Source: Hyperoplus lanceolatus (taxonomy: Eukaryota > Chordata > Actinopteri > Uranoscopiformes > Ammodytidae). Taken from it: a stretch of 64,000 nucleotides of DNA. Positions 290-60,587 of the stretch are shown here, piece by piece; the first letter of the stretch is position 1; each line of letters starts with the position of its first letter. The stretch is taken from assembly GCA_026929865.2 (NCBI GenBank), contig CM049410.1:14743501-14807500 (forward strand). Reading direction: 5' to 3'. The notes beneath the pieces are model-generated. The model was not told where the DNA came from, ran no database searches, and worked only from the letters and a program-made list of their open reading frames with translations. The translations under genes were made by a program, and so were the position numbers.

Positions 290-2779
290 CTATAGTATTA
301 TGCAACGTCTCTGCGTGTGCTTCTTGCTCTTCTTGTTGCTGCGGTTGGTCTCCTTATATCGTCTAATCTCTCGTACTAGTGAATAGAAAGCTTCCTCCAC
401 ACCCTGCAAGACAGAAAAACAAATGTTTGTCACACAGAAGATTAAAAGTTGCTTAATGATGTTACACTTATTTACTCAAACAAGGCCCATGAATGCATCG
501 CTGCACAATTAATATGATCGTACCTGTCTGGTTTTGGCAGAGGTCTCGACAAACGGCACCCCGTAGCTTCGAGCTAGCTCCTGTGCCTGCCGCGTCTCCA
601 CGGAGTGGGAGCTCAGGTCGCTCTTGTTCCCCACCAGCACCATAGGAACGCTGTCGCTGTCCTTGACCCTGTTGATCTGCTCTCTGAGAACACACACACA
701 CAATGCAACAGCACCTACAGTAAGAGATTGAGGCCAGCCTACTTAAGAAAGCACTGATCTGGGTCGGCCGCATCACCAGCTCCCATGACCTCAATGTTAT
801 GCAGTCATGTTATTCGCCGGCAGGACTGAGCAAACCATTAATAAACAGAATAATTAAATTAATAATCTGATGTATGCACTTTTTAGTATGATGCTACACT
901 TGCAGCAAAGCTTATAAAAAGGTACAGTCATTGATTCTGGAGAAGGCTTTTTTTTCAAAATCAGTGAATATCTCCTCACGATCCGCTTCCTGTCCGTACT
1001 GTGTGAGCACTGAAAGAAAAAAACTGTGTTAATACACAGCCTAGGCTCAGTACAAGGGCATGTTGATAGCCCCAGTAGGTGCTTTTGTTATCATAAATAC
1101 GTTCGAAAAAAACCATACTGATGTCCTCCCTCCTACATACTGAACATGTATATACTACGTACTGTCTACTTAACGATCGATTGTGTATGCGAGGTTCGTC
1201 GGACCGTTTACACTGAAGTATAAAGAAGCAATAAAGAATTAAAAAAAAAACTTCTGTGCGGTTTGAAAAGACACAATGCATTGTGGGGCGGTTGAGTAGG
1301 AAAAGTAGCCTGTCGATCTGTACACAAAATCTTACCGGAAGTAAGTACTCATCCGGGCATTTCTTGCCTATAAAAACTCGCACATATAACCACAACATAC
1401 TCAAATTGACCTCAAAATTAGTATGAGTAGGACGTTAGTAGGCTTTTTGAACACAGTCAGTCTCATCTTTTACATGCCAGTTTACAAAACCAAAGCTGTG
1501 TATTAACACCAGATTTTTTTTTGCGCACACACACAGGTACAGGTAGTTATCGTGAGAAGATAAACACTGATTTTGACAACAGGCTCAACTCAAATCACTG
1601 ACTCCACCTTTGAAGCATTACTTAAGAAAAGTTTTGCAAAGATATCTCCAGCTCCCACAGATTTGTCTTCTTTATTATGCGTTTGGATTTGTTGGAAAAT
1701 GTAAACCATATATTCGTGCAGAAATGGCCACACAGAAGTTGAAGCTATCCTCATATATAGATATGTGTTAAAGACATGTTCACTTCCTGCTAATCAGGGA
1801 TGTACTTTTTGTAGTTGCCTGACACTTTAACCTTGCACAGAGCCCTGTGTTTCTTTTCTGATGCTAGCCTATGGCGAGTGTCTGTGTGAGCCCTGAAAGC
1901 TTCCCTGTACCTACCTGTAGAGGTGAACGTCCTCAAAGGACTTGTTGTTGTTGATGGCAAACACACAGAGGAATCCCTCGCCTGTCCTCATATACTGGTC
2001 CCTCATGGCGCTGTACTCCTCCTGACCTGCCGTGTCCAGGATGTCCAGCAGACAGGTCTCTCCGTCAATCACCACCTGTTTTCTATAAGAGTCCTGTAAA
2101 CAAAAGCATTGGGTTTTGTCTGTGTGTTTGTGCTGGTGCGCCATGTAGCAACAAGAACTCGTTGGATGAAATGACTAGTGTCGAACTTGCAGAAACCAGA
2201 TTTTTTTTTAAAGGCTACCGTGAAACTATGCCATGAACTGACTCGAAGCTTTACATATTAAAGTGTCTAGAACAAGACATTTGAAAAATAACCCGTGGTG
2301 GTTTTTAGGCTTACAGGGGACACATTTCGAGATGTTTGGCATTAAGTCTTTGGCTTTACATAGTGAGGTTTTACTCCATTGCATTTTTTTACAGCTATTA
2401 TTGTTTTGCAACCTAAGATTTTAGATAAGAAATCATGTGGTTAGTTCATAAAATATCATGCATTGTTACAGAATAAAAACGTGCCAATAGTATATATGCA
2501 GCAGATAAAAATTATCTGACTGCCCTTTTTCCACCACTTGCTTTTCAACCTAACTTTTGGACTTACAGCATTAAAGAAGTGTGACACGTTAAATTGACAG
2601 TGTTGAGTTATTATATCTTTTCACAGCAGGACACCGTGTGTAGGCTACTCGATTAGTGGCTGTCTCACCTCGATGGTTGGATCATATTCATCCACAAAGT
2701 GGTTCTGGATGAGCTGGATGGTGAGTGCGCTCTTCCCCACACCTCCTGCACCGACCACCACTAGTTTGTACTCAGTCAT
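290..2779 (-). CDS. Classical Ras small GTPase (HRAS/KRAS/NRAS group), 4 coding exons
   Basis: Membrane-anchored GTP/GDP switch upstream of RAF-MAPK and PI3K (family knowledge). Coding exons, in transcript order: 2669-2779, 1915-2093, 524-683, 290-403; phases close to give 187 aa. Exon junctions fall at codons 37, 97 and 150, exactly as in human RAS genes. Visible motifs: P-loop GAGGVGKS (residues 10-17, Gly12 and Gly13 intact), switch I YDPTIE (32-37), DTAGQ (57-61, Gln61 intact), NKSD (116-119) and ETSAK (143-147). The effector lobe is essentially invariant. Differences from human proteins lie after residue 86, for example FEDVHLYR. The tail has lysine/arginine clusters (NKKSKKH, QRRC) and ends in CIIL, with no second cysteine for palmitoylation. 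It is not R-Ras, since the N-terminal extension is absent. Orthology to H-, K- or N-RAS is not clear, and it may be a fourth Ras paralogue, so no symbol is given. Confidence 0.93.
918..1614. mobile_element. TTAA-type MITE (family A), interrupted by a second element, in ras intron 3
   Basis: The left end reads like AGTCATTGATTCTGGAGAA and the right end is its inverse, ATCACTGACTCCACCTTT. The same sequence family recurs at 11748, 26231, 30588, 43812 and 53614. The interior matches those copies up to about 1095 and resumes after about 1462, because another transposon is inserted between. Confidence 0.7.
1095..1462. mobile_element. Non-autonomous TIR element (family B), nested in the family A copy
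   Basis: The interior, GATCGATTGTGTATGCGAG, GTGGGGCGGTTGAGTAGGA and AGTATGAGTAGGACGTTAGT, matches 59160-59886, the right half of a larger copy in eps8l1. The ends are imperfect inverted repeats around CCATACTGATGTCC and its complement. Exact borders are uncertain by about 10 bp. Confidence 0.6.
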
Positions 2780-60500: not shown

Positions 60501-60587
60501 TCTCAGGATGTGCGCAAAGCCACCGAACTAGAGACGGCGATGGAGAGGCAAAAGATGAAGATTGCCCTGACACCACAAAATGTCTAG
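45577..60587 (+). CDS. eps8l1: EPS8-like protein 1, 13 coding exons, form without PTB domain
   Basis: EPS8 family adaptor linking receptor signalling, through ABI1/SOS1 complexes, to Rac and actin remodelling (family knowledge). Exons: 45577-45694, 46427-46485, 48426-48561, 49537-49625, 49774-49848, 50240-50388, 50848-51057, 51971-52079, 52190-52330, 52447-52591, 53310-53472, 55140-55272, 60507-60587. All phases close, giving 535 aa. Order: short Pro-rich N-terminus ([18 protein letters not shown]), DDVERF helix, Lys-rich patch (about 88-102), PPSEEEF and GGPELG blocks of the conserved middle, SH3 (about 290-342, [13 protein letters not shown] and RWWKCRN), Pro-rich linker, and a C-terminal SAM/PNT-like effector domain (about 435-509, [14 protein letters not shown]). 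The C-terminal [20 protein letters not shown] is closest to human EPS8L1. The start is the first codon of its exon. No exon for the PTB domain was found upstream. Confidence 0.93.
45735..45875. mobile_element. Retroposon 3'-tail fragment
   Basis: Contains CTGCTGCCGTCTGTGTATGAGTG and TGTAAAGCACTTTGAGT, the latter a common 3' tail of fish LINE/SINE insertions. It lies in eps8l1 intron 1, shortly after the first coding exon. Confidence 0.4.
46575..47780. mobile_element. Family E TIR element, complete copy, TA-flanked
   Basis: GGGGAGAACGGGG at the left and CCCCGTTCTCCCC at the right bound 1206 bp. TA dinucleotides flank both ends (46573-46574, 47781-47782), as expected for a TA target duplication. 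The interior repeats GGGGTAAAGTGAGAC. A LINE-like tail segment (TGGATTTATATAGCGCTTT) at about 47596-47615 is nested. No transposase frame. In eps8l1 intron 2. Confidence 0.75.
49653..49721. repeat. 34-bp tandem duplication
   Basis: GAGTATCTCTTGAAATGTGC and the following ATACAACTTGGAT occur twice in tandem, in eps8l1 intron 4. Confidence 0.85.
49960..50215. mobile_element. Probable LINE/SINE 3'-end fragment
   Basis: Ends CTTGGGATCAATAAAGTTGT followed by CTAATCTAATC, a typical fish retroposon tail. It sits just upstream of the eps8l1 exon at 50240. Confidence 0.4.
50407..50770. mobile_element. Short TIR element (family D), copy 2
   Basis: Termini ACAGGTGCATCT and AGATGCACCTGT are perfect 12-bp inverses. 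The body contains TATATTCTAGATTCAT and its near complement, so it folds as a long hairpin. It starts only 19 nt after the donor of the eps8l1 exon ending at 50388. Confidence 0.8.
53243..53266. repeat. GACA tetranucleotide repeat
   Basis: About six GACA units in eps8l1 intron 10. Confidence 0.85.
53614..53860. mobile_element. Family A MITE in eps8l1 intron 11
   Basis: Left end TTAAAGGTGCAGTAAGTGAT. The right end, ACAACAAGAATTCTCAAGAT, is degraded. Confidence 0.65.
54235..55089. mobile_element. TIR element with AGG target duplication, 855 bp
   Basis: Left end GGGCCTATCCGAAAAGT and right end ACTTTTCGGATTGGCCC are inverted with one mismatch. AGG flanks both sides (54232-54234, 55090-55092). 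A 3-bp duplication fits PIF/Harbinger-type elements, but the superfamily is not certain. There is no transposase frame. Its right end is about 50 bp upstream of the eps8l1 exon at 55140, close to that exon's branch-site region. Confidence 0.75.
55315..55913. repeat. 154-bp near-perfect inverted repeat with 291-bp spacer
   Basis: Left arm 55315-55468 and right arm 55760-55913 are reverse complements with about one difference in the stretches compared by eye (for example TAAGAGCATT against TAAAAGCATT). The arms contain GACGAGTCCAGTAAAACTTA. The spacer includes a 64-bp segment repeated at 59899-59962. It lies in the last eps8l1 intron. Confidence 0.85.
56210..59886. mobile_element. Family B TIR element split by an L2 LINE
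   Basis: Left end GGCCGTGTCTGAACTGCCAT (56210) and right end ATGGCAGTTCAGACACGGCC (59867-59886) are perfect inverses. Internal sequence near the right end (GTGGGGCGGTTGAGTAGGA) matches the smaller copy in the ras intron. Flanking trinucleotides (TTA and TCC) do not match, so the target duplication is lost or the two ends come from different copies. The LINE occupies the middle. Confidence 0.65.
56440..59153 (+). mobile_element. Decayed L2-type LINE
   Basis: Endonuclease remnant GDFNIHMDN at about 57210-57236. Reverse-transcriptase fragment around [11 protein letters not shown] at about 58013. Near the 3' end, CTGGAATGCATACCC followed by CTTTAAATAAAATTTATT and an ATT tail at 59137-59153. These are hallmarks of L2 elements in fish, but no long frame survives. 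From about 57.28 to 59.04 kb the plus strand is extremely rich in C homopolymers and poor in G. The 5' limit is uncertain. Confidence 0.7.
60183..60246. repeat. TG microsatellite
   Basis: GT run of about 60 bp, 260 bp upstream of the last eps8l1 exon. Confidence 0.95.

Follow-up and report, generated by a model that had tools for sequence, protein, structure and literature searches.

A fourth vertebrate RAS gene has already been described beside HRAS, KRAS and NRAS: a preprint of January 2023 (PMC9882654) names it KRASBL (KRAS4B-like) and reports that mammals, birds and jawless fishes lack it. Among the papers found in our literature search this is the only one to describe KRASBL, and its main text does not mention SLC17A7, EPS8L1 or 19q13, synteny being the subject of its supplementary figure 7. 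Here we analyse a complete classical Ras gene in a 64,000-nucleotide stretch (the window) of the genome of the fish Hyperoplus lanceolatus (contig CM049410.1, hereafter C16, positions 14743501-14807500; assembly of 806.7 Mb). We consider it highly probable that the early vertebrate genome duplications left this gene as the fourth classical RAS ohnologue, in all likelihood KRASBL, and that it sits in its original place in a block equivalent to human 19q13. What is new here, then, is the genomic address rather than the gene. A journal version of the KRASBL preprint reportedly exists.

In the main text of the preprint, four coding exons with intron phases 0/2/0 are the structure of all vertebrate RAS oncogenes, and KRASBL is characterized by a CaaX box with a final L or F, a polybasic domain (at least four positive residues directly ahead of the CaaX box) and a phospho-acceptor as well as an NB motif (K/R-E/D-K/R) found in all KRASBL; the gene is traced there to KRAS in the second duplication and ascribed to the two rounds of early vertebrate genome duplication (2R). 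Compared with this description, the window Ras gene (minus strand, 290-2779) has 187 codons in four coding exons of 111, 179, 160 and 114 bp with intron phases 0, 2 and 0, the classical RAS structure, and its exons have consensus splice sites and join without internal stop into a protein of 187 residues that matches Pfam PF00071 (Ras) with 201 bits. Codons 1-37 lie in exon 1 (2669-2779) and switch II in exon 2 (1915-2093); exon 3 follows at 524-683, and exon 4 (290-403) holds the end of the G domain, the polybasic hypervariable region and the CaaX box CIIL with the stop at 290-292, the 3' boundary at 290 being exact. Since a splice acceptor is found 2 bases upstream of the ATG, a further, untranslated exon may precede coding exon 1. 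The switch I (EYDPTIEDSYRK) and switch II strings are those of the published RAS oncoprotein signature (PMC9882654).

The tail, too, resembles that of KRASBL. The CaaX box ends in L, a polybasic domain lies directly ahead of it and a threonine, separated from the CaaX cysteine by Q-R-R, takes up the spacing of Ser181 in KRAS4B, i.e. a phospho-acceptor four residues ahead of that cysteine. The only cysteine of the tail is the one within CIIL, and the palmitoylation cysteine upstream of the CaaX box, an NRAS trait, is missing. KRAS4B, too, has a polybasic, non-palmitoylated tail, and among solved structures KRAS4B entries are the best full-length matches of the window protein; yet KRAS4B ends its CaaX box in M rather than L, differs at 20 G-domain sites and has other neighbours. 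KRAS further has an exon 4A, whereas there is none in the intron ahead of the window's exon 4, which at 120 bp (404-523) could not accommodate an exon 4A of comparable length.

What supports a fourth ohnologue is position; on this question the Ras sequence is silent. The sequence-only reading had placed the Ras gene together with VGLUT1, SLC6A16 and EPS8L1, and this is borne out by the complete four-exon Ras gene and by neighbours typed through identity, trees and SH3 matches (see below). With pold1 on the flank, slc17a7, slc6a16 and eps8l1 are the genes of the 19q13 copy: in human, POLD1, SLC17A7 and SLC6A16 lie at 19q13.33 and EPS8L1 at 19q13.42, in agreement with the positions assumed in the sequence-only reading. 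The three-gene series recurs on C17 (slc17a7 at 17.348-17.358, slc6a16 at 17.376-17.387 and eps8l1 at 17.398-17.405 Mb) in the order and orientation seen in the window, and because of this repeat, the order must predate the copying of the block. To the left of slc17a7 on C17, a 9.6-kb stretch showed no Ras relic (best E 2.6). The C16/C17 pair is what a teleost duplication of an older block would be expected to produce, with Ras lost from one copy. On C6, a vesicular glutamate transporter gene at 14.06 Mb joins human VGLUT3 in the tree (100/99), and the last match of this slc17a8 stops ~234 kb short of the first KRAS exon. Together, the 19q13-type neighbours, the linkage of slc17a8 to KRAS on C6 and the C17 repeat without Ras support the window gene as the fourth whole-genome-duplication copy, and given three classical Ras places in 806.7 Mb and a three-gene order that repeats on C17, the presence of Ras beside slc17a7-slc6a16-eps8l1 exceeds chance.

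These three places, namely the window itself and, on C6, 14.306 Mb and 16.377 Mb, are the loci at classical level among the candidates that were scored when the genome was queried with the window protein (150 of 170) and with a zebrafish Nras (150 of 167). The zebrafish Nras and the human proteins used for comparison (VGLUT, SLC6A, EPS8L1, RRAS, ERAS, CSDE1, Ras) are sequences not taken from database entries. The gene at C6:14306316 is KRAS: it has an exon 4A of KRAS type, its residues 1-150 do not differ from those of human KRAS, and no exon 4B was found in the 9,901 bases searched at this locus; the one at C6:16377200 is HRAS, with an HRAS tail. Over the G domain, the window protein matches human HRAS, KRAS and NRAS at 147/166, 146/166 and 146/166 sites, i.e. 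it differs at 19, 20 and 20 of 166, and the sharing is mosaic. The first difference from the human trio falls on residue 87, so that residues 1-86, the effector lobe, are identical. Over these 86 codons, synonymous differences number 32 from fish KRAS and 30 from fish HRAS against 0 amino-acid changes, and the window Ras gene is thus under strong purifying selection.

Several observations weigh against a fourth ohnologue of the KRASBL type. The tail starts with K-E-T and hence lacks the NB motif of KRASBL, which is why we call KRASBL orthology very probable rather than settled, and the G domain, at 88-89% identity to the human proteins, lies below the vertebrate range (93-100%) given in the main text of PMC9882654. 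KRAS and HRAS share one contig here, 2.07 Mb apart, so the duplicated blocks are not cleanly one per chromosome. Among the candidates scored with the two queries, no NRAS was found elsewhere in the genome, for which lineage loss or an assembly gap is possible. Finally, in the tree of residues 1-150, the window Ras joins NRAS at 65/78, below the usual threshold, while constrained grouping with HRAS (p-AU, i.e. approximately unbiased test, 0.224) or KRAS (0.129) is not rejected, and in both builds of the G-domain tree no branch near the window Ras is well supported. The sequence-only reading had proposed a fourth ohnologue kept in this fish and lost from the human set, and had named as support a separate Ras clade with conserved slc17a7/eps8l1 neighbours. 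Of this proposal it is the synteny that stood and was extended (by the pold1 flank, the C17 order and slc17a8 at ~234 kb from KRAS); in the trees, no separate clade receives firm support, and the lean to NRAS is weak.

This lean, combined with the missing NRAS, makes our main rival a scenario in which the window gene is NRAS itself, displaced from beside csde1 and having exchanged a palmitoylated type of last exon for a polybasic one. In its favour, the zebrafish Nras is the nearest sequence to the window Ras (150/165), with V93, L95 and V142 in common; L95 and Y166 are also common to human NRAS. Exons of csde1 were located at C10:878936-899301 with the human query, and the 8.9 kb past its 3' end (C10:870001-878900) gave no Ras match. 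However, the window Ras does not adjoin csde1 but slc17a7, slc6a16, eps8l1 and pold1, it carries E91 where human NRAS and zebrafish Nras have A, its tail lacks the palmitoylation cysteine and ends in an L-type CaaX box, and the tree support for its union with NRAS is under any usual threshold. Moreover, the main text of PMC9882654 reports KRASBL with such a tail in addition to NRAS in other vertebrates. So to us, displacement of NRAS seems unlikely.

An even less probable scenario sees the window gene as a later duplicate of KRAS or HRAS, teleost or lineage-specific, that landed by chance next to slc17a7. Its KRAS-type polybasic tail would fit, as would residues 126 and 128, which are common to human HRAS alone, and neither grouping is rejected by the constrained trees. 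We can reject a retrocopy, since the introns are kept. Against any late copy speaks that KRAS residues 1-150 are unchanged between human and fish, whereas the window Ras differs at many sites, and that synonymous divergence of the window Ras (1.03 to fish KRAS, 1.57 to fish HRAS) is as deep as that between KRAS and HRAS (1.14). In addition, the landing site would have to coincide with the sole duplicate block that lacks a classical Ras gene. Hence, we regard a late origin as quite improbable and retain an early vertebrate one.

If the window Ras is the fourth ohnologue, its mammalian counterpart might be sought in ERAS (Xp11.23), with the window gene as the fish orthologue. Three residues are indeed common to the window Ras and human ERAS alone (3/13 sites versus 1/15 for the other three genes together, small numbers to which no test was applied), while the effector lobe of the ERAS sequence used, unlike that of the window protein, is diverged. 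Human SUV39H1, which lies close to ERAS, has its counterpart here on C10 and not on C16 or C17; six synapsin matches fall on C10, C2, C22 and C3, and hdac6 was not identifiable in this genome (best exon match 72%). From the literature, PMC4504502 lists ERAS, HRAS, KRAS and NRAS as a four-ohnologue family under relaxed criteria, and table 1 of PMC3280201 groups chr19:49-51 and chrX:47-56 Mb within one paralogous set, but PMC2831893 calls ERas an H-Ras retrogene that fish and amphibians lack. The view that ERAS represents the window Ras in mammals thus lacks good support, and we rate it a weak rival and doubtful, if somewhat less so than a late KRAS or HRAS copy.

The order in which the four genes arose is a separate matter. 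PMC9882654 pairs KRAS with KRASBL and HRAS with NRAS in its main text, while in PMC3280201 the LHB/NTF4 block (human 19:49-51 Mb among others) and the FSHB/BDNF block (11:0-48 Mb among others) form one pair, and the block of TSHB/NGF (1:111-115 Mb) and a chromosome 12 block form the other. Combined with the map positions of the RAS genes, the latter leads to (fourth RAS, HRAS) and (KRAS, NRAS), contrary to the former. Our SLC17 and SLC6 trees (three paralogues, no outgroup) carry no information on the pairing, and the Ras tree is weakly supported in this regard as well. If the 19q-11p pairing is right, the polybasic tail common to KRAS4B and KRASBL would be an old trait, and the ancestor may have carried both last exons. 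We therefore offer, as a tentative idea that is less probable than not by a wide measure, that the fourth RAS and HRAS are sisters, the KRAS-like tail of the former being ancestral, and that the ancestor had exons 4A and 4B, of which KRAS retained the pair, HRAS and NRAS only 4A and the fourth gene only 4B. According to the main text of PMC9882654, polybasic domains occur in non-vertebrate Ras, and kras of lamprey and hagfish has no exon 4A; the latter counts against an ancestral exon 4A, as it would require loss of this exon in lamprey and hagfish. If true, partitioned last exons would replace the published idea that exon 4 of NRAS was copied into KRAS.

As for the neighbours themselves, slc17a7 (VGLUT1) occupies 6877-24360 on the minus strand, with a first coding exon at ~24299-24360 (inner end inferred) that begins at 24360 and matches human VGLUT1 by tblastn (E 4e-4), followed by 12 exons from 12915 to the stop at 6877. 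It carries Pfam PF07690 and is closer to human VGLUT1 (83% identity over 500 residues, 877 bits) than to VGLUT2 (75% over 552, 866 bits) or VGLUT3 (76% over 524, 806 bits), and a two-exon tree (92/94) groups it with its C17 copy, there represented by one exon, and with human VGLUT1. In the genome, VGLUT1 loci are found on C16 and C17 and VGLUT2 loci at C6:24.15 and C1:22.74 Mb. Proximity of RRAS to SLC17A7 on human 19q13 is the only point in favour of the window gene being fish RRAS. This identity is rejected, its probability being negligible: the window protein is a classical Ras with 146-147/166 matches to the human trio, lacks the N-terminal extension of RRAS, has a classical rather than RRAS switch II and, when compared with RRAS, matches at 79% across 34 exon 1 residues, at 61% across 59 exon 2 residues and at 31% across a segment that runs through exons 3-4 and the intron between them.

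Typing of slc6a16 (25793-34408, minus strand; 11 coding exons, PF00209 with E 7e-176) is less direct. Its ATG-bearing exon was not located, and raw identity is higher to human SLC6A15 (56%) and SLC6A17 (55%) than to the fast-evolving SLC6A16 (37%). However, a three-exon tree (95/99) separates the window gene, its C17 copy (two exons) and human SLC6A16, whose branch is marked as long, from 15 and 17. Since SLC6A15 and SLC6A17 are found elsewhere in the genome, the assignment is partly by elimination; besides C16 and C17, the SLC6A15-17 group comprises C6:30.67 (nearest to 15), C10:22.84 and C2:20.28 Mb (both nearest to 17), these three loci being assigned from three exons each by narrow differences in score. 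Within the span of slc6a16, a stretch at 28580-28720 appears tRNA-like by eye, perhaps the head of a short interspersed element, and ARAGORN finds no tRNA in the window. Between slc6a16 and eps8l1, a minisatellite (35589-36701) with periods near 126 and 252 is open as a 370-residue repeat frame rich in Arg, Lys, Ala and Pro.

On the plus strand, eps8l1 (45577-60587, stop at 60587) contains EPS8 spectrin-like, SH3 and SAM domains. Its SH3 stretch best matches solved EPS8L1 SH3 domains by a small margin and its SAM stretch a solved entry named FLJ21935, while PTB exons were not found in the window, including 34600-45577 upstream of the first exon, with the human EPS8L1 query. Other matches of the EPS8 group, apart from the C17 copy, lie on C22 and at C6:23.66 Mb, both at family level. 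The last eps8l1 intron harbours a GC-rich, strongly skewed stretch (56400-59000), and in a frame at 56994-57275, a GDFNIHMDN string resembles by eye the endonuclease of long interspersed elements, with no Pfam match. Just right of the window (C16:14807501-14817500), 5,000 of 10,000 bases are N. To its left, plus-strand frames of a B-family DNA polymerase were seen by eye, three of four tested match Pfam DNA_pol_B models and the one compared with solved structures is best matched by DNA polymerase delta; on these grounds we assign them to pold1, which would end tail to tail beside the Ras gene just outside the window.

Judged from its motifs, the window Ras is predicted to act as a membrane-bound guanosine triphosphate switch. 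Because residues 1-86 are identical to those of human HRAS, KRAS and NRAS, it would be expected to bind the same exchange factors (SOS), GTPase-activating proteins, RAF and PI3K. Since the sole cysteine of the tail lies in CIIL behind a basic stretch, geranylgeranylation and a constitutive, charge-based hold at the inner plasma membrane without palmitoylation may be envisaged. The threonine equivalent to KRAS4B Ser181 could be phosphorylated. Cys118 of human HRAS, KRAS and NRAS, a residue with a role in the redox control of Ras, is replaced by serine in the window protein, which may possibly be less redox-sensitive. Lipid, phosphorylation, partners and output are all such motif-based predictions.

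Our analysis locates the fourth RAS gene within the neurotrophin/glycoprotein-hormone paralogon. This address lends independent support to its 2R origin and opens the order of the duplications to testing. Should the block pairing hold for RAS, the published pairing of KRAS with KRASBL would be wrong, and the KRAS4A/4B splice choice would go back to exons that were partitioned among duplicates. A natural Ras protein that combines predicted geranylgeranylation with an unchanged effector lobe, and has serine instead of Cys118, may be a useful comparison for the prenylation and redox biology of the RAS family.

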